NCBI RefSeq assembly: GCF_029029505.1
Contig: NZ_JAKJSD010000002.1
Coordinates: 186,001-250,000 of the forward strand
Direction: 5' to 3'
Length of the DNA: 64,000 bases
Source of the DNA: Ancylomarina sp. DW003
GTDB taxonomy: Bacteria > Bacteroidota > Bacteroidia > Bacteroidales > Marinifilaceae
Shown here: positions 5,057 through 23,250 of the stretch, one piece after another
How the letters are laid out: each line of letters opens with the position of its first letter
Numbering within the stretch: the first letter of the stretch is position 1
Notes under the pieces: model-generated
What the model saw: only the letters and a program-made list of their open reading frames with translations
Database searches by the model: none
Told to the model about the DNA's origin: nothing
Program-made: the position numbers and the translations under genes

Positions 5057-6613
5057 TTACAATGGAATGTTTGAATGCTTTTTAGCTGGATTACTCTGCT
5101 TCTTAGTCTGTAAAGACTGGAATGCACGAATCACTCTAAAACGTGTATTACGAGGCTCAATCACATCATCAATGTAACCATATGAAGCTGCATTGTATGG
5201 GTTAGCAAATTTCTCGTTATACTCAATTTCTTGCTCATTGATGAAAGCAACTTTCTCATCATCGCTAAGTTCCATCATTTTTCTACCATGTAGTACCTCG
5301 ATAGCACCTTTAGCTCCCATTACTGCAATTTCAGCTGAAGGCCAAGCGTAGTTAAGGTCACCACGTAATTGCTTACAAGACATTACATCGTGAGCACCAC
5401 CATAAGATTTACGTAGAGTGATAGTTACTTTAGGAACAGTAGCCTCACCATAAGCGAACATTAATTTCGCACCATGAGTAATGATACCACCAAACTCCTG
5501 ACCTGATCCCGGAAGGAATCCTGGAACGTCAACTAAAGTAAGAATAGGAATATTAAAACAGTCACAGAAGCGGATAAAACGAGCTGCTTTTCTTGAAGAT
5601 TCAATATCTAAAACACCTGCAAGGAAGTTAGGCTGATTGGCAACAATACCTACTGGCATACCACCCATTCTTGAGAAACCTACAAGAATATTCTTTGCAT
5701 AGTGACGGTGAACTTCTAAGAACTCAGCATTATCAACCATAGAATAAATAACATCCTTCATATCGTAAGGCATGTTAGGATTCTCAGGAATAATCTCGTT
5801 CAACACATCTTCCATTCTATCGATTGGATCATTACAATCCGCCAATGGTGGCTCTTCAAGATTATTAGAAGGCATGAAAGATAACAACTTACGAATAATC
5901 ATGATTCCTTCTTCTTCATCTTCCAATTTGAAGTGAGAAACACCTGATTTAGATGCGTGCATATGAGCACCACCCAAGTCTTCAGTTGTAATATCTTCAC
6001 CAGTCACAGTTTTTACAACCTTAGGACCGGTAACAAACATGTATGACTTTTCTTCAGTCATCATGATAAAGTCAGTTAATGCAGGAGAATAAACGGCTCC
6101 ACCAGCACAAGGACCAAAAATTGCAGAAATCTGAGGAATAACACCAGACGCCATAATATTTCTCTGGAAAATCTCAGCATAACCAGCTAGAGCAGTAACA
6201 CCCTCCTGAATACGAGCTCCTCCTGAATCATTCAATCCAATACAAGGTGCTCCAACTTTCATTGCCATATCCATCACCTTGCAAATCTTTTGTGCAAAGG
6301 TTTCCGATAAAGAACCACCAAATACTGTGAAATCCTGAGAGAACACAAAAATTAAACGTCCATCTACAGTTCCTTGACCTGTAACAACACCATCGCCTAA
6401 GAATTTAGTTTTCTCCATACCAAAATTGGTACAACGATGTGTTACAAACATATCGAATTCCTCGAAACTACCTTCATCCAAAAGCATATCGATTCTTTCA
6501 CGAGCAGTACACTTACCTTTCTTGTGCTGAGATACAATACGCTTCTCACCTCCGCCAAGTTTAGCTTCAGCTCTTAAGTCAATTAACTTCTTAATTTTAT
6601 CCTGACTAGCCAT
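5057..6613 (-). CDS. mmdA: Methylmalonyl-CoA decarboxylase alpha subunit (carboxyltransferase)
   Basis: 518 residues, the usual size for the biotin-dependent carboxyltransferase family (also PccB). It has two crotonase-fold halves with acyl-CoA and biotin site motifs such as [27 protein letters not shown] and [13 protein letters not shown]. It transfers the carboxyl of (S)/(R)-methylmalonyl-CoA, after epimerisation, to biotin on MmdC, giving propionyl-CoA. The enzyme could act as propionyl-CoA carboxylase, but no biotin carboxylase subunit is encoded nearby and the membrane pump subunits follow directly, so the decarboxylase direction is favoured. It lies 38 bp downstream of mce. Confidence 0.92.
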
Positions 6614-6651
6614 AACTTCTATTAGTTATAATATATTATAATTGAGTGTTC

Positions 6652-7056
6652 TTATTTATTACCACAAAGTTCAGTCAAAACTCTCTGAGTTGACTTAGGG
6701 TGCATGAAACCAATCTTCAAACCTTCAGCTCCACCACGAGGTGTCTTATCGATCAATTGACATCCTGCTTCTGCAGCATCATTCAACGCTTCTTGAACAT
6801 CTTCTACAGCAAATGCTAAGTGATGCATTCCGCCACCAGTCTTCTCTACGAATTTACCAATTGGTCCTTCTGGATCAGTAGACTCAAGCAATTCGATTTT
6901 TACATCTCCTACTTTGAAAAACGCAGTCTTCACTTTCTGATCAACTACTTCTTCAATAGCATAACACTCTAATCCTAATACTTTCTCGTAAAATGGAATA
7001 GCTTCTTCTAAGCTTTTAACAGCAATTCCGATGTGCTCAATATGTGTCGGTTTCAT
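6652..7056 (-). CDS. mce: Methylmalonyl-CoA epimerase
   Basis: 134 residues of the vicinal-oxygen-chelate (glyoxalase) fold. It interconverts the two methylmalonyl-CoA epimers, linking B12-dependent mutase to the decarboxylase. Metal-ligand landmarks are His at residue 7 in HIEHIGIAV, Gln in EEVVDQKVKTAFF, the GGGMHHLAF His and the C-terminal LTELCGN Glu. It is the first gene of the five-gene propionate operon and has its own good promoter at 7091-7121. Both length and motif order match the family closely. Confidence 0.93.
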   Translation of the reverse strand: MKPTHIEHIGIAVKSLEEAIPFYEKVLGLECYAIEEVVDQKVKTAFFKVGDVKIELLESTDPEGPIGKFVEKTGGGMHHLAFAVEDVQEALNDAAEAGCQLIDKTPRGGAEGLKIGFMHPKSTQRVLTELCGNK

Positions 7057-7090
7057 AATTAAATTATATTTTGATTGAATAATTTGGTGA

Positions 7091-7121
7091 CAAAAATATT
7101 GAAAGGAAAAACGATAATCAA
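7091..7121 (-). promoter_or_regulatory. Promoter of the mce-mmd operon
   Basis: On the minus strand TTG (7119-7121) and TATTTTTG (7091-7098) are separated by 20 bases, fitting the Bacteroidota consensus. It is about 35 bases upstream of the mce start. Confidence 0.65.
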
Positions 7122-7676
7122 CGTTTTCTTAGATTATTAAACTTGTTCTTCAACATGTTCAGGCCAACGACTAAAAAGCACCTTCTCTAGTTTGATACAA
7201 AGACTATTACAGGAATCAACCAGCCTTAAAACTTTCAGAAATAAAACTCGGATAAGCTTCAGATTCTGCACTTTCGAAAACCTTTGCACGATTCTTAATT
7301 TTCTTCGAAACAAATGAAAAGCGTTTTCATCATATTTAGAAATAAAAAAATAGTTTCCTCAACATAGATTTATCTGTTTTATAACAAGAATATTACAACA
7401 TGAACTTTTTCTTATCAAAATCTCAAACTTCGTTATCAAATAAATCTGTTGTGTTGAAGAATTAAAAAGCTCTTCAATTGGCATATTTCGCAATTTACCA
7501 CCTCTTTATTACAAGAGCAAAACAAATAAGCTCTACATCTCTTATTTTCACAGAAATAAAAGCTCAATGTGGAAAAATTACATATACAATTTTGTATCTA
7601 AATACCTTACTAAAATTCAACTTGTAAAAACACAGAATTTCCTCACAGTCTACTCAACAAAATCAAACTCTTTAAC
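7122..7676. other. AT-rich intergenic region with no recognised gene
   Basis: About 550 bases between divergent operons. I see no tRNA, no convincing small ORF and no known regulatory RNA. The only structure noticed is a modest 7-bp inverted repeat (TTGAAGA...TCTTCAA) near 7457-7480. Confidence 0.5.
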
Positions 7677-7684
7677 TATATTTG
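7677..7684 (+). promoter_or_regulatory. -7 box of purL
   Basis: TATATTTG, a perfect -7 element, lies 43 bases before the purL ATG. It overlaps the upstream in-frame TTG at 7682, which argues that translation cannot start there. No clear -33 element is seen. Confidence 0.6.
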
Positions 7685-7726
7685 CAGCGAAATCTGCTTT
7701 CAACCAATTTTTATAAAAAATTTAAG

Positions 7727-10700
7727 ATGATACTATTCTTTAAAAAAGGTAAAGTTCATTACGGAGTACATTGTTCTCTCGAATTAAATGCAATTGACAC
7801 AGCTAAACTTTCTTGGCTATTCAGCGACGCTGAAGTTTTGACAAACAAGTCTGTAACTGGTAAGTTTGTAGGACCTCGTAAAGAGATGATTACACCTTGG
7901 AGTACAAATGCTGTTGAAATCACCCAAAATATGGGATTAAACGGAATTCTTCGCATCGAGGAATTCGCTCAGGTAGACACTGAGCATCCTCAGTTTGATC
8001 CAATGCTTCAAAGTTCATATGAAAATTTAGATCAAGAAATTTTCACAATTGAGAAACAAGCTGACCCAATTCTTTATATCGAAGACATTAGATCTTATAA
8101 CAAAGAAGAAGGTTTAGCGCTAAGCGAGGAAGAAATAAAATACCTTGAAGATGTTGAAAAGAAGATTGACCGCAAACTAACTGATTCAGAAGTATTCGGT
8201 TTTTCTCAAGTTAACTCGGAGCACTGCCGTCACAAAATATTTAACGGGACTTTTGTTATTGATGGTGAGGAAAAAGAGTCTTCTCTGTTTCAATTAATTA
8301 AAGAAACATCTAAAAAGAACCACAACCGAATTGTTTCGGCTTACAAAGACAATTGTGCATTCCTTGGCGGACCAAGAGTTGAGCAGTTTGCTCCAGCTTC
8401 TCACGATAAAGCAGATTTTTTCTATACCAAAGATATTGACACTGTTATTTCATTGAAGGCAGAGACACACAATTTCCCTACTACAGTAGAACCATTTAAT
8501 GGTGCTGCAACAGGAACTGGTGGCGAGATTCGAGATCGTATTGCAGGTGGTAAAGCTTCTTTACCAATGGCTGGAACAGCGGTTTACATGACTGCTTACC
8601 CAAGATTAGAATCGTCTAGAAAATGGGAAGATGCTACAGATCCTCGTAAATGGTTATACCAAACTCCTGAAGAGATTCTTATTAAAGCATCTAATGGAGC
8701 GAGTGACTTTGGGAACAAATTTGGTCAACCATTAATTTGTGGTTCTGTACTAAGTTTCGAACATTTCGAAAACAATAAAAAATACGGATACGATAAGGTT
8801 ATCATGCAAGCTGGTGGTATTGGTTATGGCCGATTGGAGCAAGCTCAAAAAGATGTACCTAATAAAGGTGACAAAGTTGTTCTTTTAGGTGGTGATAACT
8901 ACCGAATTGGAATGGGTGGTTCTGCTGTATCTTCAGTAGCAACAGGTGAATTCGATAACTCTATTGAGTTAAATGCAGTCCAACGTTCTAATCCTGAAAT
9001 GCAGAAACGTGTTTGCAACGCAATACGCGCAATGGCTGAATCTGATCACAACCCTATTGTTTCTATTCACGATCATGGTGCAGGTGGCCACCTGAACTGT
9101 TTATCAGAATTGGTTGAAGAAACTGGTGGTAAGATCGACCTTAATGCACTTCCTGTTGGTGACCCTACTCTATCGGCTAAAGAAATCGTTGGTAACGAGT
9201 CTCAAGAAAGAATGGGATTGGTTATTGGAAAAGATGATGTTGATTTATTGACTCGTATTGCTGATCGCGAACGAGCTCCTATATACACAATTGGTGAAAC
9301 AACTGGTGACATGCGTTTCACATTCGAAGATAAAAAGACTGGTGAGAATCCTATTGATCTTGGTCTTTCTGAAATGTTTGGTAAGCCACCCAAAACTGTA
9401 ATGACTGATGAAACTGTAGTGGAGTCATTCGAAGAAGTTGTTTACGAAGCAGATAAGTTGGAAGATTACCTTGAAGAAGTATTACAATTGGAATCAGTTG
9501 CTTGTAAAGATTGGCTAACCAATAAAGTTGACCGTTCGGTAACAGGTAAAATTGCCATGCAGCAATGTGCTGGTCCTCTTCAACTGCCTCTAAATAACCT
9601 AGGAGCTGTAGCTTTAGATTTCCAAGGTGAAAAAGGTATTGCAACCTCTATTGGACACGCTCCAGTTTCGGCTCTTGTTGATTCTGCTAATGGTTCTCGT
9701 CTTTCCATTGCTGAGTCATTAACTAACTTAGTTTGGGCTCCAATTGAGCAAGGCATTAAAGGCGTTTCTCTTTCTGCTAACTGGATGTGGCCTTGTAAGA
9801 ACAAAGGTGAAGATGCTCGTCTTTATAAAGCTGTTGAATCAATTAGTGAATTCGCTATTGAACTTGGCTTAAATGTTCCTACTGGTAAAGATTCCTTATC
9901 GATGACTCAAAAATATGGTCAGGATGATGTGGTATACGCACCGGGAACAGTAATTATTTCAACTGTTGGTGAAATTGTTGACATCAATCGCATGGTTAGC
10001 CCAGTGATGAAAAATGCTGCCAACTCTCACCTACTACATATCGATTTCTCAAAAGATGCTTTTCAACTAGGAGGAAGTAGCTTTGCTCAAATCGTTAATA
10101 AATTAGGAAAGACAACACCTAATGTAAACGATGCTAAATATTTTGCTAAAACTTTCGAAACACTTCAACAGCTTATCCTAGATAGAAAAGTTCTTGCTGG
10201 ACATGATATTTCTGCTGGTGGTATGGTTACTGCATTGCTTGAAATGTGTTTTGCCGATAACAAACTTGGCGCATCAATTAACCTTGACGAAATTAAAGAA
10301 GCTGACTTAATCAAAGTTTTATTCAGCGAAAATCCAGGTGTTATTATTCAAGTTGAAGATCTTGATTTGGTAAGCAAAACCTTAACTAAGGCTGGTATTA
10401 TCTTCCATAAAATTGGAACACCAGATGAAGCAGGCAAAATGACAATTACTAAAGCTGATAAAAACTTATCACTTGATATAGCTTCACTACGTGACCTTTG
10501 GTATAAAACATCTTACCTATTAGATCGCAACCAATCAGGAAATGATAAGGCTTTAGAACGTTTCAAATCGTATAAAGAAAATAGTTTAACTTACAAATTC
10601 CCTGAGAACTTTACAGGTAAATTTGCACAGTATGGTATTGATCCTAAGCGTCAAACTAAATCTGGCATTAAAGCAGCTATCATCCGTGAAAAAGGTGTGA

Positions 10701-11416
10701 ATGGCGATAGAGAAATGGCTTGGATGATGCATTTAGCTGGTATGGATGTGAAAGATATTCATATGACTGACTTAATTTCTGGTCGTTCTGATTTCTCAGA
10801 CGTTAACATGATTGTTTTCGTTGGTGGATTCTCTAATTCAGATGTATTAGGTTCTGCTAAGGGTTGGGCTGGAGCATTCTTGTATAACGAGAAAGCTAAG
10901 AAAGCTCTTGAAGATTTCTACAAACGTAAAGACACTCTAAGTTTAGGTGTTTGTAATGGGTGTCAGCTAGTCTCTGAACTTGGATTGATTTACCCTGAAC
11001 ACGACAAGCATCCAAAACTAATTCATAACGAAACTCATAAATTCGAATCAGGCTTCGTGAATGTTGATATTCAAGCTAACGAATCAGTTATGCTTTCAAC
11101 ACTTGCTGGTAGTCGTTTAGGTATTTGGGTTGCTCACGGTGAAGGTAAATTCGATTTGCCTTACGGTGAAGACAAGTATCAAATTCCAATGAAGTACAGC
11201 TTTAAAGATTATCCTGCAAATCCTAATGGCTCTCCATTCGAAACTGCAGCAATCTGTTCTAAAGATGGTCGCCATTTAGCAATGATGCCTCACTTAGAGC
11301 GTGCAACATATCCTTGGAATTGGGCTTACTATAACGAAGACAGAAATGAAGACGAATTAAGTCCTTGGATCGAAGCTTTTGTTAATGCTAAAAACTGGAT
11401 TGCAAAACATAAATAA
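7727..11416 (+). CDS. purL: Phosphoribosylformylglycinamidine synthase, large single-chain form
   Basis: 1229 residues from the ATG at 7727, the size of the large PurL that fuses the PurS-like, synthetase and glutaminase parts. It converts FGAR, glutamine and ATP to FGAM, the fourth step of de novo purine synthesis. Visible landmarks are the linker SQVNSEHCRHKIFNG, the ATP/metal region LKAETHNFPTTVEPFNGAATGTGG, a second AIRS-like half, and a C-terminal class I glutaminase with nucleophile Cys1076 in LGVCNGCQLV and a late His/Glu in MPHLERATYPW. A longer frame can be read from a TTG at 7682, but that codon lies inside the -7 box. The gene is monocistronic, bounded by a strong terminator; purB lies separately at 50053. 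Confidence 0.96.
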   Translation: MILFFKKGKVHYGVHCSLELNAIDTAKLSWLFSDAEVLTNKSVTGKFVGPRKEMITPWSTNAVEITQNMGLNGILRIEEFAQVDTEHPQFDPMLQSSYENLDQEIFTIEKQADPILYIEDIRSYNKEEGLALSEEEIKYLEDVEKKIDRKLTDSEVFGFSQVNSEHCRHKIFNGTFVIDGEEKESSLFQLIKETSKKNHNRIVSAYKDNCAFLGGPRVEQFAPASHDKADFFYTKDIDTVISLKAETHNFPTTVEPFNGAATGTGGEIRDRIAGGKASLPMAGTAVYMTAYPRLESSRKWEDATDPRKWLYQTPEEILIKASNGASDFGNKFGQPLICGSVLSFEHFENNKKYGYDKVIMQAGGIGYGRLEQAQKDVPNKGDKVVLLGGDNYRIGMGGSAVSSVATGEFDNSIELNAVQRSNPEMQKRVCNAIRAMAESDHNPIVSIHDHGAGGHLNCLSELVEETGGKIDLNALPVGDPTLSAKEIVGNESQERMGLVIGKDDVDLLTRIADRERAPIYTIGETTGDMRFTFEDKKTGENPIDLGLSEMFGKPPKTVMTDETVVESFEEVVYEADKLEDYLEEVLQLESVACKDWLTNKVDRSVTGKIAMQQCAGPLQLPLNNLGAVALDFQGEKGIATSIGHAPVSALVDSANGSRLSIAESLTNLVWAPIEQGIKGVSLSANWMWPCKNKGEDARLYKAVESISEFAIELGLNVPTGKDSLSMTQKYGQDDVVYAPGTVIISTVGEIVDINRMVSPVMKNAANSHLLHIDFSKDAFQLGGSSFAQIVNKLGKTTPNVNDAKYFAKTFETLQQLILDRKVLAGHDISAGGMVTALLEMCFADNKLGASINLDEIKEADLIKVLFSENPGVIIQVEDLDLVSKTLTKAGIIFHKIGTPDEAGKMTITKADKNLSLDIASLRDLWYKTSYLLDRNQSGNDKALERFKSYKENSLTYKFPENFTGKFAQYGIDPKRQTKSGIKAAIIREKGVNGDREMAWMMHLAGMDVKDIHMTDLISGRSDFSDVNMIVFVGGFSNSDVLGSAKGWAGAFLYNEKAKKALEDFYKRKDTLSLGVCNGCQLVSELGLIYPEHDKHPKLIHNETHKFESGFVNVDIQANESVMLSTLAGSRLGIWVAHGEGKFDLPYGEDKYQIPMKYSFKDYPANPNGSPFETAAICSKDGRHLAMMPHLERATYPWNWAYYNEDRNEDELSPWIEAFVNAKNWIAKHK

Positions 11417-11439
11417 TCATACATCCATATATTTAGAAG

Positions 11440-11469
11440 CCCTCTTTCCTATCGGAAAGGGGGTTTTTT
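11440..11469 (+). terminator. purL terminator
   Basis: CCCTCTTTCC pairs with GGAAAGGGGG (one G.T pair) around a four-base loop, followed by six T. Confidence 0.85.
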
Positions 11470-11544
11470 CATTTACTATAAAGATATACTCTTTTCGTTT
11501 TTTTTTATACCTTGTGCTTCGAACTAATCAAACCGACCCGCATT

Positions 11545-11940
11545 ATGAAGCATTTCGCACTATTAATATCTATCCTATCTATCACATTTTCATGTGCTAA
11601 CCAGAAAAACACTCACAATAAATCAATAGCTGATTCAGCTCAAGCCAATAAAGAAATTCCTATCAATAAATCAGATTTTGCACCTGGGACTTTGGCTTTA
11701 AACATAAAAATATCAAAAATAATTTTGCATGATGGTTATTATGAAATTAATGCAATGATTAATAAAACTCTTGGCTCAGGAGCAGGGATAATTGGAGTTT
11801 ATTCTAAAGGCAATGAAATTACTATACAAACAAAACAGGATTTAAAATTAGAATCAAATTCATCATACAGCTTCCTTTTCACAGAAAGCAAAAAGATGGA
11901 GAATAAAAACAGATTACAAATAATTAGGGAAATAAAATAA
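11545..11940 (+). CDS. Small putative lipoprotein of unknown function
   Basis: 131 residues from the ATG at 11545. The start MKHFALLISILSITFSCAN is a lipoprotein signal with Cys after TFS. The mature part begins with a polar, Asn/Lys-rich linker and ends in a compact domain with alternating hydrophobic residues (LALNIKISKIILHDGYYEINAMINK, GNEITIQTKQDL), suggesting a small beta domain on the envelope. I do not recognise a family. An upstream in-frame start at 11512 would bury the signal peptide and is less likely. It sits alone between the purL terminator and the secreted propeller gene. Confidence 0.6.
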   Translation: MKHFALLISILSITFSCANQKNTHNKSIADSAQANKEIPINKSDFAPGTLALNIKISKIILHDGYYEINAMINKTLGSGAGIIGVYSKGNEITIQTKQDLKLESNSSYSFLFTESKKMENKNRLQIIREIK

Positions 11941-12036
11941 AGACTTTAAATAGTAAAGGTTCTATACTCATTCGACCATGAGATCTTGATCTTTTTATTT
12001 AATCTAACTTACTAACCGCTAACTAACAAAAAAAGA

Positions 12037-14871
12037 ATGGCAAAAAATTTACTATTGAGTACAGCATTTTTTGTGGCATGCTCCTTAAGTGGCTTAGCTC
12101 AAACAAAAAATATTGTTATTAATGAGAATACTTACAAAAAGCTTACTGCACCTGGAATAAACCATGTGAGAATGGCTAAAAAAGCAGACAAGCGTAAAGG
12201 TATCATCCGAGTAAAAGATGCACCTCATGAGCGTATATTGTTCCAACAACTTGTTTTACAAAATCCAAGTACGGAAAAAATGCCTACAAATTTCCGTGAG
12301 AGAGAATTAAATTTTTTCACAACTAATCGAAATAAATTCGTTTCCAGAACCAAATCTCAGAGCATTGATTGGAAACAAACTGGCCCATATAATGTAGGAG
12401 GTAGAACTAGAGCTCTCGCTATTGATGTGACTGACGACAATATTATTTTAGCAGGTGGAGCTACAGGAGGAATGTGGCGATCAGAAGATGGTGGCACTAA
12501 TTGGACAAAAACCACTACTACTACTGATCATCAATCTGTAACTGCTGTTGCACAAGATCCTCGGGATGGTTTTACTAACATTTGGTATTATGCTACAGGA
12601 GAGTATTCAGGGTCAGCTGGCGCAAGTGGGGCTTTTTATTCCGGCCAAGGTGTTTTCAAATCTGAAGATGGTGGTAAATCATGGAATAAATTAGCTTCAA
12701 CAGATACGGATGATACACCTATTTTTACAGAAACCATTGATATTGGTTGGAACATTTGTATAGATCCGCTAAATGGAGATGTATATCTAGCTTCTTATGG
12801 TAAAATTTGGCGATTAACTCAAGGTGGCGCTATTGCAACTACAGTTTTAACCAGTAAACCTACTGCTGAAGATAGCTGGGCATCACAAACCGATGTGATC
12901 TGCACACCCACAGGTGTAAAATATGCAACTTTAAGTAGCGGTGGCACAGTAAAAGGTTTTTTCAGATCAACAACTGGTAATATGGGTGATTGGACAGAGA
13001 TTACTCCTTCAGAGTTTCCAATAACCTTTGCAAGAACTGTATTGACTTACGCACCTGGTAATGAGAATATATTATATTTCCTATCACAAACTCCAGGTAA
13101 TGGTTTAAGAGGTCATAGCTTATGGAAACTGACAATAAACGGTGACGAACTTGTTTGGGAAGATAGGTCTCAGAACCTACCAGCAAAAATATCTGAGGCT
13201 GACAATGATGTATCTGGCTACAACTCTCAAGGATCATATAATATGGTCATAAAAGTAGCTCCGGATGACGAAAACATGGTTTTTGTTGGTGGAACAAATC
13301 TACATCGAAGCGATGATGGTTTTGAAACTAATACTAAAACATATTGGATTGGTGGGTATGCTACAGAAAACAATGTCAGTCAGTATGACAACCAACATCC
13401 TGATCAGCACTCTTTAGCATTCTTTGATGACGGTTTAACACTTTTAAGTGGTCATGATGGTGGTATTAGTAAGACTAATAATTACAAACAAACTGAAGAT
13501 TCTGGATTAGAAGATGATCCTGCTCATCCATCAGTTAAACCTGTAGATTGGATTTCATTAAATAATGGTTATTTAACAACTCAGGCATACACTGTTGGGA
13601 TAGATGCTAAAGATGAAACATCTTTTGAAATCTTAACCGGTTTTCAAGATAATGGAACTTGGTATACTGTCAAAGAAAATGGTACTCACAGAAAAAATTG
13701 GATTCAACTAGGTAGTGGAGACGGAGCTTACTGTAGCATGCACAATTCTTCAAATGGTTATATCACTTCATCACAACGAGGTCGTATTTATTTGAATGTT
13801 TACAATACCACTGATAAAGAATGGGAATGGACACGGGTTGATCCTGAAGGCGTAGATTCTGATGATGTCCTATTTATCAATCCATATGAAATTGATGGTA
13901 ATAATGAAGCGATCATGTTTTACGCAGGAGGTACAGATATTTGGAGAAATACAAATATTTATGAAATTCCAAGATTTTCTAATGATGCAGCCAGTTTAGG
14001 ATGGGAAAAGATGGAAGGAACTAATGTTACAGGTCAAATATCAGCAATCAAATCGTCGATTCTTCCTGCTAACCTTTTGTATTTTGGTACTTCTGAAGGA
14101 AAAATTTACAAAACAATTAATTCACAATCCAATCAATCTGTAACAACCGAAATTACAGGTCCGTCTATGCCTGAAGGTTATGTCAGTAGTATTGAAGTTA
14201 ATCCAGCGAATGCAGAATATGTATACGTAACTTTCTCAAACTATGAAGTAGAGAGTATTTTCTTTTCAAAAGATGCTGGAGAAACATGGAGTGCTGTTTC
14301 AGGAAATTTGGAAATCACGCAGAATGAAAAAAACATTGGTCCATCCGTCAGATACATCAATGTAATAAATGCTGAAAATGGACCTATTTATTTTGCAGCA
14401 ACAAGTATAGGTTTATATAAGGCTACCGAGTTAACTTCTAACACGCAATGGACTCAAGTTTCAACAGATAAAATTGGAAATACTGTTGTGGATATGGTTA
14501 AAACTCGTAAGGATGGCTTTATCGCAGTAGGAACTCACGGTAATGGTATATTCCATGCTAATATTACTCCAGGTGAACCTAATGTAGATCCTGCAGGGCC
14601 TCTTGTTGGTATTGATGATTTGGATGAAACGAATACAAAATTAAGTATTTATCCAAACCCATTGGTTACTGAAAGTCGTATAGCTTTTCCTAACAAGGAC
14701 AATGAAATTTACCGATTAGTTGTTGTTGATGCCTCAGGTCGTGTTGTTCGTATTATTGAGAATATCACAAATAATAATATCACAATTAACCGTGAGCAAT
14801 TAAAGCCTGGTATTCATATTATCAATCTTGAAGGAGAAAAGATTTACAAAGGTAAATTACTTGTGAAATAA
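12037..14871 (+). CDS. T9SS-secreted beta-propeller (BNR/sortilin-like) protein
   Basis: 944 residues with a signal peptide (MAKNLLLSTAFFVACSLSGLAQ). The central part carries repeated Asp-box-type elements (SEDGGTNWTK, SEDGGKSWNK, SKDAGETWSA), as in sialidase and Vps10/sortilin beta-propellers. The last about 80 residues are a type A T9SS sorting domain: IYPNPLVTESRIAF, VVDASGRVVR, GIHIINLEGEKIYKGKLLVK. The protein should therefore cross the outer membrane through the type IX system and be attached to the surface or released. No catalytic residues of a known hydrolase stand out; adhesion, glycan binding or proteolysis-related roles are all open. Confidence 0.85.
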   Translation: MAKNLLLSTAFFVACSLSGLAQTKNIVINENTYKKLTAPGINHVRMAKKADKRKGIIRVKDAPHERILFQQLVLQNPSTEKMPTNFRERELNFFTTNRNKFVSRTKSQSIDWKQTGPYNVGGRTRALAIDVTDDNIILAGGATGGMWRSEDGGTNWTKTTTTTDHQSVTAVAQDPRDGFTNIWYYATGEYSGSAGASGAFYSGQGVFKSEDGGKSWNKLASTDTDDTPIFTETIDIGWNICIDPLNGDVYLASYGKIWRLTQGGAIATTVLTSKPTAEDSWASQTDVICTPTGVKYATLSSGGTVKGFFRSTTGNMGDWTEITPSEFPITFARTVLTYAPGNENILYFLSQTPGNGLRGHSLWKLTINGDELVWEDRSQNLPAKISEADNDVSGYNSQGSYNMVIKVAPDDENMVFVGGTNLHRSDDGFETNTKTYWIGGYATENNVSQYDNQHPDQHSLAFFDDGLTLLSGHDGGISKTNNYKQTEDSGLEDDPAHPSVKPVDWISLNNGYLTTQAYTVGIDAKDETSFEILTGFQDNGTWYTVKENGTHRKNWIQLGSGDGAYCSMHNSSNGYITSSQRGRIYLNVYNTTDKEWEWTRVDPEGVDSDDVLFINPYEIDGNNEAIMFYAGGTDIWRNTNIYEIPRFSNDAASLGWEKMEGTNVTGQISAIKSSILPANLLYFGTSEGKIYKTINSQSNQSVTTEITGPSMPEGYVSSIEVNPANAEYVYVTFSNYEVESIFFSKDAGETWSAVSGNLEITQNEKNIGPSVRYINVINAENGPIYFAATSIGLYKATELTSNTQWTQVSTDKIGNTVVDMVKTRKDGFIAVGTHGNGIFHANITPGEPNVDPAGPLVGIDDLDETNTKLSIYPNPLVTESRIAFPNKDNEIYRLVVVDASGRVVRIIENITNNNITINREQLKPGIHIINLEGEKIYKGKLLVK

Positions 14872-14952: not shown

Positions 14953-15195
14953 TTAATAGCCCACACCTGCAGCCATAATATTGTTAGGGTCAAAGGCATG
15001 GCATGGTGTTACACCGTGAACCATATCACATTTTGGGCAATGTCCTTCGAATTCTTCCATAGTAAAAGTTTCCTTGCAACCATGACATTCGATATCTAAT
15101 GGCATTGGCATTAATTGCTGAGCAAATCCCATCATTCTTACCTTATCAACTACTTGTTGTCCATTCTCGAAACTTCCTGCGCATCCGTCGTGCAT
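14953..15195 (-). CDS. Small Cys-rich zinc-ribbon-like protein, last gene of the soluble ABC/GTPase operon
   Basis: 80 residues with two CxxC knuckles (Cys37-His-Gly-Cys40 and Cys53-Pro-Lys-Cys56), which should bind one Zn or another metal, plus extra Cys5 and Cys65 and His2, His52, His60 and His66. The N-terminus MHDGC recalls the MHE Ni-binding start of HypA, the partner of HypB, and HypA also has a two-CxxC zinc domain. This is a resemblance in layout, not demonstrated homology. It lies 56 bp downstream of the ABC ATPase gene and is very probably cotranscribed. There is no signal peptide, so it should be cytoplasmic. Function unknown; a metal or iron-sulfur cofactor carrier is the working idea. 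Confidence 0.6.
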   Translation of the reverse strand: MHDGCAGSFENGQQVVDKVRMMGFAQQLMPMPLDIECHGCKETFTMEEFEGHCPKCDMVHGVTPCHAFDPNNIMAAGVGY

Positions 15196-15251
15196 AATAT
15201 CTATTTTTTAGTGTTAGTTCTTTATTCTATTTCTGTGATTAATATCTCAAT

Positions 15252-16280
15252 CTAAAAGCCAATATCTTCTTTCTGAATAATTTCTCCTTGACGTAATCTT
15301 GTTCTCATATTTTGAACCACGGCATCCATTCTTTCAAGATCACTCAATAAATTTTGCTCCTCATCACTAGTTTCAATCACTTTATGAATACCGCCATTTT
15401 TAATTACGATACGCTTATCACCCATAAGAGCAAGAATAGGATCGTGAGTTGCCATCAGAACAATCTTTTCTTCGCCGACTAATAAATCCAAAGCACGTTT
15501 TCTATCAATACCGGCATTCTCAATCTCATCAATTAAAATAATTGGCGACTTACTTAAAATTGCGGTATCTGCAATCATTAAAGCTCGCGATTGACCACCA
15601 CTCAAACTCGTAATAGGCGTTGTTAATTCGAACTTCTCTCCTGCCAAATCATTGGCTTGTGCAAAAATCTTATTTATGACACCTTCAACATCTTCAACCA
15701 AACGAGACTGTGCATGTAGTTCAATAAACTCATAAACCGTTAAGTCCATTACAAAGTTCATATTTTGCGATAGCTGAGCAACAAGTTTATTACCTGAATT
15801 TAATCGCCACTTAGAATCACCTACTTCCCCATTAACAAGTACAGAACGAGAAGTTGGTGTATCTTTTTGTGCTACCCATTCAATATCTGCCAATAAACGA
15901 CTTTTTCCGGAACCAGTAGGACCTACAATACATACAATCTCACTCTTATTTATCTTTAACTCTTCAAATTTTTCAACCTCACCAGATTTATTCGTTCCAG
16001 GTAATAATGTGATTGAATGAACACCATCATCCTCATCTTCTCCTAAGAATTCAAGCATTTGATCGATATAAATACACATCGAATCTAAAACCTGAGCTTT
16101 ATCCATTGCTCTGTTCTCTTGCTCTTCTTCTTCGTCAAGAAAATCCAAATAGTTAACAAGTGCTATATCTAAGTTTCCATTCAGCTGCAAAGTATGTTCT
16201 TCGAAAAAACCAGGTAAAAATGGGTATTTCTCAAATAAATCGGCAAGTGTTTTACTCTGTATATCGTTTACTGTAATCAT
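15252..16280 (-). CDS. Soluble ABC-type ATPase with N-terminal DUF1858/ScdA-N-like domain
   Basis: 342 residues. The N-terminal about 80 residues (KTLADLFEKYPFLPGFFEEH) resemble the DUF1858/ScdA-N helical domain, followed by an acidic linker. Residues 105-300 form an ABC ATPase with Walker A GPTGSGKS (120-127), signature LSGGQ (226-230), Walker B ILIDE (248-252) and switch His279. A C-terminal helical tail follows (LLSDLERMDAVVQNMRTRLRQGE). No membrane segment is present and no permease gene lies in the operon, so it is unlikely to drive ordinary transport. It follows the GTPase gene by 39 bp. Possible roles are ATP-driven remodelling or cofactor insertion, like other soluble ABC ATPases; the actual target is unknown. 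Confidence 0.7.
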   Translation of the reverse strand: MITVNDIQSKTLADLFEKYPFLPGFFEEHTLQLNGNLDIALVNYLDFLDEEEEQENRAMDKAQVLDSMCIYIDQMLEFLGEDEDDGVHSITLLPGTNKSGEVEKFEELKINKSEIVCIVGPTGSGKSRLLADIEWVAQKDTPTSRSVLVNGEVGDSKWRLNSGNKLVAQLSQNMNFVMDLTVYEFIELHAQSRLVEDVEGVINKIFAQANDLAGEKFELTTPITSLSGGQSRALMIADTAILSKSPIILIDEIENAGIDRKRALDLLVGEEKIVLMATHDPILALMGDKRIVIKNGGIHKVIETSDEEQNLLSDLERMDAVVQNMRTRLRQGEIIQKEDIGF

Positions 16281-16319
16281 TTTCTAAATCTAAATTGGTT
16301 AATTGAAATCCTCAATAAT

Positions 16320-17018
16320 CTATTTCTTATCACTCATGTCAATCTTTCGAACATTACCCATTTGGTAAGATTCACCAATTCGGGTTTCACCCAAACAATA
16401 TGAGCAAAGAGCCGATGGCATTGAAAATCTCAACTTCTCACCAACAAGTGTTTTCACTTCAACTTTATCATCATATAAAAGAGTACTTAACTCATAAGCT
16501 CCCTGCCCCGTTAAACCATTTACGTGCATAATCGTCGCTCCTGGATTCACCGTATTTACTCTTGAAGCAAACACTTCACGCTCAGCCTGAGAAACGATAT
16601 CGCCTTTTGTGATGATAACAATATCAGCCGTTTTTAGCATGGGTCCAATCTTCTTTGGCGTATTAATACCACTTAAATTATCTATTACACAAACAGCAGT
16701 AACAGTTTTGATGTATGGAGAACAACGGTTACACAAACCTGCCGATTCTGTAATTAACAAATCCAATCCCTCTTTCAATCCCCACTGTGTTACTTCCTCA
16801 ATATTACTTACAAAATAATGATCCGGACAAAGCGAACCCGAAAGTCCTTTCTTAACTTTTACTCCTGCTTTTTCGTATAGTATATCGTCATCGGTATACA
16901 AACAGTCGAATTTGACAACTCCAACCTTTAAACCACGCTTTTGAACGGAGTCAATAGTCTTTAAAATAACGGCTGTTTTTCCTGATGAAGGAGGTCCTGA
17001 TACTGTAACTAAATTCAT
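16320..17018 (-). CDS. SIMIBI-class GTPase related to HypB/UreG-type metallochaperones
   Basis: 232 residues. The P-loop GPPSSGKT is at 8-15; TKGD at 137-140 stands in for the G4 motif NKxD. The segment LLITESAGLCNRCSPY (88-101) corresponds in position to the IENVGNLVCP switch of HypB, where the Cys binds nickel. Cysteines are concentrated in plausible metal sites: Cys64 (LCP), Cys96/Cys99 and a C-terminal pair Cys205/Cys208 in LCSYCLGETRIG. The protein is probably cytoplasmic and uses nucleotide hydrolysis to deliver a metal or metal cluster. It sits between the binding-protein-like gene and the ABC ATPase. The class is fairly secure, but the substrate is not known and the hyp or ure genes are not in the window. 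Confidence 0.7.
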   Translation of the reverse strand: MNLVTVSGPPSSGKTAVILKTIDSVQKRGLKVGVVKFDCLYTDDDILYEKAGVKVKKGLSGSLCPDHYFVSNIEEVTQWGLKEGLDLLITESAGLCNRCSPYIKTVTAVCVIDNLSGINTPKKIGPMLKTADIVIITKGDIVSQAEREVFASRVNTVNPGATIMHVNGLTGQGAYELSTLLYDDKVEVKTLVGEKLRFSMPSALCSYCLGETRIGESYQMGNVRKIDMSDKK

Positions 17019-17104
17019 ATCTTAAGGTTATATCTATTAAAATGTATGAGTTAATGCAAACGTCTTACTTGCGAAATTAAGACCTGAAATTAATCAATTC
17101 TAAA

Positions 17105-18391
17105 TTAAGGTTGAGGCGAAAAACTTAAAGGTCCCATATTCTTAAAGCTATTATCCTTTATTGCTTTATTAAAGATACCTTCACACTTAACGATTAACTC
17201 TCCAATGTTGTTTGAGTTGATATAATCCCAACCCAACCACATAAACTTATTCTTTTCTGGAAGTCTGTTATCGACTTCAGGATTTATACTAGGGAATAAA
17301 CCTTGATGTGAAAGAATTTCACCAACACCTTTTGATGCAAAGAAATCAATAACATCCTGAGTTTTATCCAATTTATCTTTCTTTGTTAGCATGAAAATAG
17401 GACTAATAATAGCTCCATCTTCTGGCCAAACCGCAACCATACTACCACCCTCTTTCACCATTTTAGTAAAGAAATAAGGCATAATAGTAATGGCTGGTCT
17501 ATCCTTTTTCTTCGTATGTGATTTCACCATTTGCGATGGGTGCATACTTTCCAAAAGACATTCTCCTAAGCCTTTAACACCTTCTTCACCATAAGCTTTA
17601 TAGATATGTAACAACATAGAGTTGAACAAATCAAAGTCACTAATTGGAAGGCTCACACTATTTTTAAATTCAGGCTTGAATAAATCTGCCCAAGTACGAG
17701 GTACTTCTCTATCTCCTAATTCATCCTTATTTACAAGAAATACAGCTGGCACAACACCAATCATTGAATAGTGTCCTTCAGGATCTTTTAAACATATATC
17801 TTCGTTATCAAAATCTTTATTCAAACGCTCAAATCCAGTGCTATCAGCAAATACATCACGCTTCTTAAATTTACCCATCAGCTTCTCGTCAAAAAACAAA
17901 TCGAAACCTGCAGAGATAAAGATATCAGCTAATTTATCTGGGTTATCTTCGTTAATAACATCTCCCATCAACCAATCTAGCCCCATTGAAGCTGCCTTCA
18001 AATCATAAACAATCTCTCTATCGTTAGCTTTCTTGTAATCTTCAATAAAAGCATCAATTCCTTCAACCAGTGGCACACGAACAGGACATGGCAACAACCC
18101 CTGAACATGAACAGCATCCTCATCAGTACTCGTTTCTTTCTGATTTAAATCTGCATCAATTTGGTTTCTTGTCAAGTCAATACCTTCAACTAATAAAGAT
18201 GCAAATGCGTCGACATTTAATTTTTTCATCTTTAAAGCCATATCGAGAGTCAAAGACTTACCGAAAAGTTCTCTTTTCTTAGGATCTTCCAACTGCTTGA
18301 ATCCGTTTGAGACAAAAATCTTAATTGTTTCAGGGAAACGTGTGCAAATATCAAGTAAACTATCGGTATTTTTAAAATATTGATTCTCCAT
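17105..18391 (-). CDS. Cytoplasmic solute-binding-protein-like protein with DUF1858-like N-terminus
   Basis: 428 residues. The first about 70 residues match the DUF1858/ScdA-N style helical domain (LLDICTRFPETIKIFVSNGF, then FGKSLTLDMALKMKKLNVDAF). The remainder has the fold signature of Fe(III)/thiamine-type extracellular binding proteins (GVVPAVFLVNKDEL, PRTWADLFKPEFKNSVSLP, GGSMVAVWPEDGAIISPI). There is no signal peptide or lipobox before it, so it is predicted to stay in the cytoplasm, which is very unusual for this fold. It is the first gene of a four-gene operon, behind a -7 box and a Crp/Fnr-like palindrome. Possible roles: a cytosolic metal or anion sensor or carrier for the ABC ATPase and GTPase encoded downstream. 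Confidence 0.7.
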   Translation of the reverse strand: MENQYFKNTDSLLDICTRFPETIKIFVSNGFKQLEDPKKRELFGKSLTLDMALKMKKLNVDAFASLLVEGIDLTRNQIDADLNQKETSTDEDAVHVQGLLPCPVRVPLVEGIDAFIEDYKKANDREIVYDLKAASMGLDWLMGDVINEDNPDKLADIFISAGFDLFFDEKLMGKFKKRDVFADSTGFERLNKDFDNEDICLKDPEGHYSMIGVVPAVFLVNKDELGDREVPRTWADLFKPEFKNSVSLPISDFDLFNSMLLHIYKAYGEEGVKGLGECLLESMHPSQMVKSHTKKKDRPAITIMPYFFTKMVKEGGSMVAVWPEDGAIISPIFMLTKKDKLDKTQDVIDFFASKGVGEILSHQGLFPSINPEVDNRLPEKNKFMWLGWDYINSNNIGELIVKCEGIFNKAIKDNSFKNMGPLSFSPQP

Positions 18392-18421: not shown

Positions 18422-18429
18422 CAAAAGTA
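18422..18429 (-). promoter_or_regulatory. -7 box of the soluble ABC/GTPase operon
   Basis: TACTTTTG on the minus strand, about 30 bases before the first start codon. No -33 element is visible at the normal spacing, as expected for an activator-dependent promoter. Confidence 0.5.
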
Positions 18430-18450: not shown

Positions 18451-18466
18451 TGTAACTAATGTTACA
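18451..18466. promoter_or_regulatory. Crp/Fnr-family-like operator palindrome
   Basis: TGTAAC-TAAT-GTTACA is a perfect 16-base palindrome, with an extra half-like GGTAAC nearby at 18435-18440. Its centre lies about 33 bases upstream of the -7 box centre, or about -40 from the expected start of transcription, the classic class II activator position. Bacteroidota Crp/Fnr-type regulators (the HcpR group among them) bind palindromes of this general form; the specific regulator is inferred. Confidence 0.5.
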
Positions 18467-21046: not shown

Positions 21047-21973
21047 ATGCTAAAAGCTAACGAGCTATCTAAATCATATAAAGAAGTAAAGGCCCTATCG
21101 GGAATTTCTCTTAAGGTAAAAAAAGGTGAATTATATGGTTTACTCGGTCCCAATGGAGCAGGAAAAAGTACTTGCATCAATATTCTGAGTTCACTCATTA
21201 AACCAGATTCAGGAGAAGTATTCTATGATGGCAAATCACTCTCTGATAACAGAAAGTATTGTAGGCAAATACTTGGTGTTGTACCTCAGGAAATTGCCCT
21301 TTACGAAGATCTATCAGCTTTTGAAAACCTAATGTTCTGGGGTAAACTATATGGAATAAAAGGGAAAGCTCTTGAGACCAAAATAGACGAACTTCTCAAG
21401 ATGCTGGGACTTTTCGACAGACGAAAGCATAAGGTGAAAACTTACTCGGGAGGAATGAAAAGGCGCATTAATATTGCCGCAGCCCTACTTCACGATCCTG
21501 AAATTGTTTTTATGGATGAACCTACAGTCGGAATCGATCCGCAAAGTAGAAATTTAATTTTTGAAGTTATAGAACAACTACATGCCAAGGGTTTAACCAT
21601 GATATACACGACACACTATATGGAAGAAGCCGAGCGTTTATGTGACAGAATTGGAATTATTGATGAAGGAAAAATTTTTAGAGAGGGAACCTTAGCTGAG
21701 TTGAGAAAGGCTTCATCTATTAAAGAAGAAATTAAGCTCAAATTCTCGAATCCTGAGAAGAATGAGCTTATTGACCTAAAGGAAAAACACGAGCAAAACT
21801 TAATCGTAAATGAACATCAACTTGTTCTGTCATCCAATCAATCAGATGTTGATTTACCTCTATTGATTCAAGGCTGTTTAGCTTCGCATTTAAAAATTGA
21901 AAATATTAGCATTAGCAATGTGAATCTCGAATCGATATTCCTCGAATTGACAGGAAAATCTCTTAGAGATTAG
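21047..21973 (+). CDS. ABC-2 transporter ATP-binding protein
   Basis: 308 residues: Walker A GPNGAGKS, signature YSGGMKRR, Walker B IVFMDEP and switch His in TTHYMEEAERL, in the pattern of the drug/polysaccharide exporter ATPases (CcmA/NodI-like). The last 80 residues are the regulatory extension common in this group. It is followed 41 bp later by its ABC-2 permease and together they form an exporter. The substrate cannot be told from the sequence. The intergenic stretch in front shows no clear promoter. Confidence 0.9.
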   Translation: MLKANELSKSYKEVKALSGISLKVKKGELYGLLGPNGAGKSTCINILSSLIKPDSGEVFYDGKSLSDNRKYCRQILGVVPQEIALYEDLSAFENLMFWGKLYGIKGKALETKIDELLKMLGLFDRRKHKVKTYSGGMKRRINIAAALLHDPEIVFMDEPTVGIDPQSRNLIFEVIEQLHAKGLTMIYTTHYMEEAERLCDRIGIIDEGKIFREGTLAELRKASSIKEEIKLKFSNPEKNELIDLKEKHEQNLIVNEHQLVLSSNQSDVDLPLLIQGCLASHLKIENISISNVNLESIFLELTGKSLRD

Positions 21974-22014
21974 TTCTCCAGATCATTGAATTCTTTATCA
22001 AAAACACCCACAAC

Positions 22015-23250
22015 ATGTTCAATTTAGCATTAAAAGATATACAACAATACTTCAAGGATAAAACAGCAGTCTTCCTCTCACTACTATTGCCTATAGCACT
22101 AATGACAATTTTTGCTTTAATGTATGGCGGAATCGGAGGTTCTAAAGAATCTAAACCAATCACTCTTCTTTTTACCGATCAGGATAATACTGAGATTTCA
22201 AAAGAAGTTTATGTAAAATTGGATTCTCTTGATGGACTCAAGCTCGTTAACAAACCCTTAGCTGAGGCAAAAAAATTAATAAAAAAAGGTAAGAGTGCTT
22301 CTGCTTTTGTTTTATACAAGGGCTTTCAAGATTCAGTCATCTCTGGTCAGAAACTTCCTATGGAACTTTTCTATGATGAAGCCAAGGAAATTGAAGTTGG
22401 ATTGCTTCAACAGGCTTTATGGTCCAATCTGTTTGGTATTACCATGAAGAGAAGTATGAAAGGTAAAATAAACGACTGGCTGGTAGAAAAGAATCCTGAT
22501 CTATCTTCCAGTGAGTTGGATGAAATTCAAGAACATATTTCTGAGCAATTCAACGAATTTGAACAAACAGAAAATGATTCAGAAATTAAAGAAGATTCTG
22601 GTTTGCCAATGACCGCTCTGGTTAGTGAAAAGAAAGATGGTAATTTAGGCTTGGTTCAAGCCATTGCAGGTATGGCTATAATGATGTTACTTTTTAGTGT
22701 ATCTGCTAGCGGAGCATCTCTATTGAAGGAGAAAGAAGAAGGAACTTTACGTCGTTTACTTGTTGCACCTATCTCTCCTCAGAGTATATTGTATGGTAAA
22801 ATGCTTTCAACACTATTCCTTGCTATTCTACAGCTTACGGTTATGTTTCTGTATTCGTGGTTAGCTCTTGGCTTAGATATTTTCATCAACTTACCAGCTT
22901 TGATTCTTATGATTTTATCATCGGCAATAGCCTGTAGTAGCTTTGGAATTTTTATGGCTTCTGTTTGTAAAAGTCGCAAGCAGGTTGAAAGCCTATCAAC
23001 ACTCATCATTCTGGTTATATCTGCCTTAGGTGGAAGTATGATGCCAATGTTCTTTATGCCTGCTATTATGCAAAAAATTGCCGTTATATCAGTAAACTAT
23101 TGGGCCATGGATGGTTTCTTCGATATTTTCTGGAGGCAACTTCCAATAGCTGATATCATTCCAAATGTTCTCGTATTACTTGGAATTGGATTTGGTTTAA
23201 CCGCCATATCGGTTATTAGTTTCCGTAAGAGTATTCTAAAAATGATGTAA
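22015..23250 (+). CDS. ABC-2 type permease
   Basis: 411 residues with the usual plan: one N-terminal membrane helix (LSLLLPIALMTIFALMYGG), a large extracytoplasmic domain of about 180 residues rich in charged residues, then five membrane helices starting at IAGMAIMMLLFSVSASGAS. The conserved KEKEEGTLRRLLVAPISP motif, which contacts the ATPase, is present. It pairs with the ATP-binding protein encoded directly upstream. Linearmycin/NatB-like exporters have this architecture; the substrate is not known. Confidence 0.9.
   Translation: MFNLALKDIQQYFKDKTAVFLSLLLPIALMTIFALMYGGIGGSKESKPITLLFTDQDNTEISKEVYVKLDSLDGLKLVNKPLAEAKKLIKKGKSASAFVLYKGFQDSVISGQKLPMELFYDEAKEIEVGLLQQALWSNLFGITMKRSMKGKINDWLVEKNPDLSSSELDEIQEHISEQFNEFEQTENDSEIKEDSGLPMTALVSEKKDGNLGLVQAIAGMAIMMLLFSVSASGASLLKEKEEGTLRRLLVAPISPQSILYGKMLSTLFLAILQLTVMFLYSWLALGLDIFINLPALILMILSSAIACSSFGIFMASVCKSRKQVESLSTLIILVISALGGSMMPMFFMPAIMQKIAVISVNYWAMDGFFDIFWRQLPIADIIPNVLVLLGIGFGLTAISVISFRKSILKMM

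Follow-up and report, generated by a model that had tools for sequence, protein, structure and literature searches.

A conserved four-gene GTPase/ABC operon of Ancylomarina, predicted to share the HcpR regulon with hcp

A tight operon of four genes in a 64,000-nucleotide stretch of Ancylomarina sp. DW003 (NCBI RefSeq assembly GCF_029029505.1, contig NZ_JAKJSD010000002.1, positions 186,001 to 250,000 of the forward strand; this whole stretch is hereafter the window) is predicted, from the motif in its promoter, to belong to the HcpR (nitrosative stress) regulon together with hcp. We give an even chance to the reading that its products form a cytoplasmic, nucleotide-driven metallocofactor module, which as part of this regulon would mature or repair the hybrid cluster of Hcp under nitrosative stress. 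The conserved gene set, the promoter motif and the linkage with hcp are read from the sequence, and the maturation or repair of the cluster is what we infer. The original prediction, made from the letters of the window, had proposed a cytoplasmic metal or cofactor trafficking machine driven by both ATP and GTP; its interpretation is partly supported, and it missed the promoter motif common to the operon and hcp, that is, the predicted regulon membership.

The operon and its promoter

The four open reading frames (ORFs) lie on the minus strand in the order SBP-GTPase-ABC-SML along transcription. Gene 1 (17105..18391) encodes a binding-protein-like product of 428 aa (SBP), with a DUF1858 domain at residues 10-63 and an SBP_bac_6 domain at 152-394; gene 2 (16320..17018) a 232-aa GTPase with a CobW/HypB/UreG domain; gene 3 (15252..16280) a 342-aa ATP-binding cassette (ABC) ATPase, which resembles DUF1858 over ~90 aa at its N-terminus; and gene 4 (14953..15195) an 80-aa ribbon protein (SML) with an N-terminal MHDGC, C37xxC40, C53xxC56 and C65. 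The gaps between them are 86, 39 and 56 bp, so that the single tight operon first described stands as it was drawn.

Upstream of it is an HcpR2-type palindrome (18451..18466; TGTAACATTAGTTACA on the minus strand), which matches the HcpR2 consensus GTAACnnnnGTTAC published in the accessible text of PMC1274295, and a -7-like box, TACTTTTG, stands at 18422..18429 on the minus strand, 29 nt from the palindrome centre. The same palindrome precedes the genome's own hcp, and within the 4.84-Mb assembly the extended form TGTAACnnnnGTTACA is confined to these two promoters, that of the operon and that of the only hcp (two occurrences, against one for its reversed control). The case for the regulon rests on this extended form, on position and on spacing, because the short motif GTAACnnnnGTTAC alone, with 8 places in the genome against 8 for the reversed control, is at chance level. 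Five of these 8 places are inside ORFs of at least 70 aa, the three others preceding the operon, hcp and a cupin gene, and a box ending in TTTG at +29 (TACTTTTG, CATATTTG and GACTTTTG) is found only at the latter three. In 14/14 operon promoters (the window and 13 Marinifilaceae loci) the distance between TAnnTTTG and the palindrome centre is exactly 29 nt, and the hcp promoters have at the same place [TC]AnnTTTG in 11/14 and GATATTTG in 3/14, a pattern loosened after viewing the sequences, since the strict TAnnTTTG is missing there in three hcp promoters.

The palindrome was then surveyed in 69 operon loci with enough upstream sequence, for which mononucleotide shuffles gave a mean of 0 to 0.02 per group. 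Its perfect form precedes the operon in all 17 Marinifilaceae loci, in 12 of the 33 further loci where no Rrf2 gene is linked, and in none of the 19 Rrf2-linked loci within the stretch searched; it also precedes hcp in 26/50 cases (53 loci were given, three without a recognised start). In 13 Marinifilaceae loci the recognition helix of a Crp/Fnr protein encoded near the operon carries Arg-Pro, in agreement with HcpR2 as PMC1274295 describes it, with Pro at 181; we take the helix positions to align with those of CRP. Five Halanaerobiales-type regulators carry Arg-Glu in place of Arg-Pro, and in six loci of this type a CRP-like site replaces the palindrome before the operon (6/6) and before hcp (7/7), with one mismatch each in a scan run without a shuffle control. 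From the changed helix, together with the changed site at both places, it would seem that regulator, operon and hcp changed together. The Tepidibacter locus L075 has no CRP-like site and carries a one-mismatch HcpR2 site instead. No Crp/Fnr homologue is encoded in the window, the whole genome not having been searched for HcpR.

With an HcpR2 site in its promoter, the operon resembles the HcpR/HcpR2 regulon of PMC1274295 in that GTAACnnnnGTTAC stands before hcp and before the operon alike. In that source, its unreadable supplement aside, hcp is the sole member of the HcpR2 regulon in most Bacteroides and in several further groups, and the operon is unnamed. A possible third member is a 107-aa cupin (G000:C56, L235 6933-7256), which has an HcpR2-type site in the intergenic stretch upstream, about 75 nt from its start. 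Its family occurs beside the operon in other phyla too (8/80 loci, immediately preceding SBP in 7) and next to the hcp of L117; the identity is 28-35%, which leaves orthology unproved. Many promoters of the Rrf2 genes of L038-L099 hold a second palindrome-like element (like TAGGTAnnnnnTACCTA), perhaps for autoregulation, and by eye an HcpR2-type site also stands before the Rrf2 gene at L038 and L040.

Conservation of the set and its association with hcp

Conservation was assessed in the best 80 of 473 GTPase relatives, to which all counts of 80 loci refer. Eighteen of these are Marinifilaceae and 62 belong to many other anaerobic phyla (Spirochaetes, Fusobacteria, Firmicutes, Halanaerobium, Cloacimonadota, Aminicenantes, Acidobacteria and more). 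The original prediction had made itself depend on the four genes staying together in other genomes, and this they do, as the order and strand of the module are kept in 80/80 loci; such conservation rules out chance clustering. The GTPase and the ABC ATPase are present in 80/80 (two of the ABC matches, L045 and L067, being short and weak, at contig ends), SBP in 77/80 and SML in 62/80, or, where flanking sequence is sufficient, SBP in 70/70 and SML in 56/66, the ten loci without SML being six of Halanaerobium type and four Firmicutes. Among the three larger proteins the GTPase varies least between loci, with 79-85% identity to the window protein in the 62 non-Marinifilaceae loci, a range partly set by the best-80 selection. 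A search with SBP through 198 genomes of its own phylum matched 11, the own genome and ten at only 18-21% identity. Patchy spread combined with high identity suggests horizontal transfer of the module.

In the loci outside Marinifilaceae, the genes that recur next to the operon are hcp and those for regulators of the Crp/Fnr and Rrf2 types and for a small cupin. An hcp gene is found in 20/80 loci and lies downstream, on the same strand and within 752 bp, in 15/80 (at least 2 kb of downstream sequence being available in 63 of the 80); at L099 an Rrf2 gene sits between the operon and the downstream hcp. The Ancylomarina genome has one hcp (TIGR01703 at 767 bits, over the cut-off), which is its only Prismane-family gene. 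Leaving aside the genomes of three of the 80 loci, Hcp (TIGR01703) is present in 64 of 77 operon genomes (41/49 and 23/28), over the cut-off in 62, and in 18/18 of those not labelled as metagenome-assembled genomes (MAGs). In a set of 245 genomes of the class of Tepidibacter, which we label Clostridia, the GTPase (E <= 1e-40) is present in 14, all 14 with Hcp over the cut-off, as opposed to 101 of the 231 without it (Fisher p 1.6e-5). Three of the 14 have paralogous modules only, and comparison of the other 11 with all remaining genomes gives p 1.9e-4.

The GTPase as a mere marker of anaerobes was checked with HydF as control and set aside, there being no clear association: HydF is over its cut-off in 165/245 Clostridia, and the 14 GTPase genomes gave at least nine matches over it, E values of 9.4e-140 in G436 and 3.0e-96 in G368, and weaker matches in G387, G392 and G409. 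In the Hcp tree the operon-positive sequences cluster (5 changes versus a shuffled mean of 21.0), a weak signal, as the 24 negatives are the best-scoring Clostridia only. Judged from these sequence data, we consider the link of the operon to Hcp and HcpR strong.

In 4/80 loci (L053, L064, L071 and L097) NifU-like and NifS-like (cysteine-desulfurase) genes are encoded on the opposite strand, upstream of the unit formed by the Rrf2 gene and the operon, the naming being based on one NifU-like and one NifS-like protein that were checked. One hcp frame (L201, G514:C5:14392-16032) has a single in-frame TGA, which may reflect an error, gene decay or selenocysteine.

The four proteins

SBP matches SBP_bac_6 at 285.7 bits (cut-off 24.6) and DUF1858 at 57.7 bits (cut-off 32.2). 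Its AlphaFold2 model (predicted local distance difference test, pLDDT, 83.9) has ferric-binding proteins at the top of its Foldseek list, the best being 1y4t (E 5.6e-14, TM-score by target 0.68), and the fold is that of FbpA. The N-terminal hydrophobic stretch of an exported importer-type binding protein is absent from it. By Kyte-Doolittle hydropathy, used here in place of a dedicated signal-peptide predictor, all four proteins look free of signal peptides and membrane segments: no N-terminal or internal hydrophobic stretch in them equals in strength those of one likely exported protein and one ABC-2 permease from the same window; the soluble set first proposed, its binding-protein-like product lacking a signal peptide included, is thereby confirmed. 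The ABC ATPase matches ABC_tran (PF00005; 57.7 bits, cut-off 25) and, as foreseen, no importer permease is encoded within the operon. Its N-terminal part aligns with the DUF1858 part of SBP with an hhalign probability of 80.9% locally and 24.5% globally. The pair recalls FbpA/FutA ferric-binding proteins and their ABC importers in having the SBP fold and an ABC ATPase, but differs from them in that no signal peptide is seen, a DUF1858 domain stands at the N-terminus and the operon has no permease.

The GTPase falls within cobW/HypB/UreG (PF02492; 53.2 bits, cut-off 20.7) and scores 51.9 bits against the HypB equivalog TIGR00073, whose cut-off is 121.2. Compared with sequences of solved structures, it meets RecA constructs first, through many weak repeats none of which passes alone, and then HypB and UreG, which by this comparison are its solved relatives. 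Invariant residues are C39, C64, H67, C96xxC99, C110 and C205xxC208, in an alignment of 29 sequences that takes in seven paralogues down to 42% identity. The metal-ligand-like cysteines ascribed to this protein are supported, and the use of both ATP and GTP by the module is supported as a prediction.

SML has the two CxxC pairs attributed to it, and H2, C5, C37, C53, C56 and C65 are conserved in 28/28 sequences, C40 in at least 90%. It starts with MH[DE], residue 3 being D or E in 27/28, and this start resembles the nickel-binding N-terminus of HypA. Its scores are below the HypA cut-offs (PF01155, 19.8 versus 28.9; TIGR00100, 18.4 versus 88.1), and its model (pLDDT 89.9) gave no Foldseek match with E below 0.001, the HypA fold included. 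A SIMIBI GTPase with conserved cysteines next to a small two-CxxC protein is reminiscent of the HypA/HypB pair that inserts nickel into [NiFe]-hydrogenase; here, however, scores are far below the HypA/HypB cut-offs, no HypA fold match is significant, the pair is coupled to an ABC ATPase and SBP, and the genome has no [NiFe]-hydrogenase.

Proposed role, rival readings and paralogous modules

If the module does serve the Hcp cluster, SBP would act in the cytosol by capturing iron or part of a cluster. Its release or remodelling would be driven by the ABC ATPase, with a DUF1858-like domain like that of SBP, and the GTPase and ribbon protein, in the manner of HypB with HypA, would hand metal to Hcp, so that its Fe-S-O hybrid cluster would be built or, after damage by nitric oxide (NO), rebuilt. 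Metal hand-over is suggested by a HypB-like GTPase accompanied by a HypA-like ribbon protein; nucleotide-driven loading or release is suggested by a cytosolic protein with an iron-binding-protein fold and an ABC ATPase that has a DUF1858-like domain in common with it; and Fe-S chemistry is indicated by Hcp being the enzyme most often nearby, and by the few NifU/NifS-like neighbours.

Several observations weigh against this proposal. Hcp is not found in 13/77 operon genomes, all 13 of them MAGs, including all three Aminicenantes. Conversely, 101 of the 231 Clostridia without the GTPase have Hcp, and so has E. coli, which served as search control and which to our knowledge lacks the four-gene module; the module, then, is not needed for Hcp in general. 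Given the many Clostridia with Hcp but without the GTPase, the module probably helps when NO is present or iron is scarce and is not required everywhere. The short motif is at chance level, as said above, and the perfect palindrome is absent from the stretch searched in all Rrf2-linked loci. Neither the HypA nor the HypB family cut-off is reached, binding of metal or ligand by the four proteins is putative, and co-regulation with hcp does not prove maturation.

Some of these points agree with a general salvage of iron or Fe-S clusters under nitrosative stress, in which iron from NO-damaged clusters would go to general repair and Hcp would be no more than a regulon mate. This we judge possible, if rather unlikely: the motif common to the operon and hcp, the operon genomes without detected hcp, the many with hcp but no GTPase, the presence of DUF1858, or a domain like it, in both SBP and the ABC ATPase and the NifU-/NifS-like genes near the operon in 4/80 loci, which slightly raise its odds, are all in keeping with it, but the downstream hcp in 15/80 loci and the 14/14 co-occurrence in Clostridia fit a dedicated client better. 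There is a slim chance that the module is instead an energised electron donor, the GTPase, with its CxxC pairs, binding an Fe-S cluster and reducing Hcp in a nucleotide-coupled, NifH-like way. Its seven invariant cysteines and one histidine would suit this, as would a paralogue beside NifH- and nitrogenase-component-1-like genes and the scarcity of ferredoxin-motif ORFs beside hcp in operon genomes (3/55). Such ORFs are also few without the operon (5/24, the best-scoring genomes only), and the comparison is uninformative as to a replacement of ferredoxin by the module; moreover, SBP and the ABC ATPase are left unexplained, and the similarity to HypB/UreG points to metal transfer.

The original prediction had likened the parts to metal uptake or nickel-centre assembly. 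Assembly of a nickel centre is disfavoured: the genome gives 0 matches to PF00374 ([NiFe]-hydrogenase), and carbon monoxide dehydrogenase (CODH) was not found, its only Prismane-family gene being hcp, in a search covering these two enzymes and not urease or other nickel enzymes. A nickel client was set aside as first choice. It seems very unlikely to us that nickel, or another non-iron metal, is chaperoned to a further enzyme, even with a HypB-like GTPase alongside a HypA-like ribbon protein whose N-terminus recalls the HypA nickel site, given the family scores, the two missing enzymes and the NifU-/NifS-like neighbours, which slightly lower its odds. Hcp and CODH are related, according to the accessible part of PMC10502027. 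CooC-type maturation of the CODH C-cluster is comparable in that a nucleotide-driven factor acts for an enzyme akin to Hcp; CooC chaperones nickel to CODH, whereas the present set is made of four different proteins in a genome where CODH was not found. That the set is a pared-down ABC importer working with a permease from another part of the genome is barely credible, and a membrane importer was rejected, since SBP shows no signal peptide and the orthologues have no recurring importer permease as neighbour (unlinked permeases were not searched). SBP and the ABC ATPase do have importer-type folds, and an ABC-2 pair is found near the operon in the window (21047-23250, two genes away, on the other strand) and in 13/18 Marinifilaceae loci, but this pair comes with an ATPase of its own and is missing from all 62 other loci, where a permease-like family recurs in only four, on the other strand. 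Linked FecCD permeases, which could also speak for an importer, are found with 3/7 of the paralogous modules examined and not with orthologues.

These seven paralogous modules come from four Clostridia genomes (G336, G425, G387 and G359). Three of them (L178, L181 and L182, in G336 and G425) are GTPase/ABC/SBP modules linked to the FecCD permease genes and to a small S-adenosylmethionine methyltransferase (one checked by Pfam, the others by eye), and Peripla_BP_2 binding proteins, a further importer-like trait, are linked to L178 and L183. At L179 (G336:C1:1702000-1716000) a DUF364/DUF4213 'heavy-metal chelation' protein comes after a paralogous GTPase and ABC ATPase, and ThiC-family genes, which resemble an anaerobic benzimidazole cluster, run divergently from these. 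At L183 (G387:C35:232000-246000; 6360-13734) a Crp/Fnr regulator, GTPase, ABC ATPase, SBP-like, NifH-like, two nitrogenase-component-1-like and a Peripla_BP_2 protein are encoded in a row, the GTPase having 46% identity to its nearest relative in the set; judging from this gene row, it is a paralogous module tied to a nitrogenase-like system. No such partner genes stand beside the modules of L180 and L185. The neighbours of the paralogues support, by association, a general role in metallocofactor supply, and their partners suggest a wider metallocofactor family.

A search of open-licence papers, outside their supplementary files, found no description of this four-gene system, and no dedicated assembly system for the Hcp hybrid cluster turned up in the open-licence literature. 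With less than even confidence, and on the basis of the paralogues, we suggest only tentatively that the module is an undescribed, dedicated maturase or repair system of the Hcp cluster and the first recognised member of a wider class of soluble GTPase/ABC/cytosolic-binding-protein systems supplying metal or clusters to metalloenzymes (Hcp here; nitrogenase-like and other systems in the paralogues). In any case, the operon provides concrete and widely conserved candidate genes, under an hcp-type promoter, for assembly of the Hcp cluster, and makes testable the question of how strict anaerobes build the hybrid cluster and keep it working under NO. If the proposed role is true, parts typical of importers, a binding protein and an ABC ATPase, would work together in the cytosol and not across a membrane.

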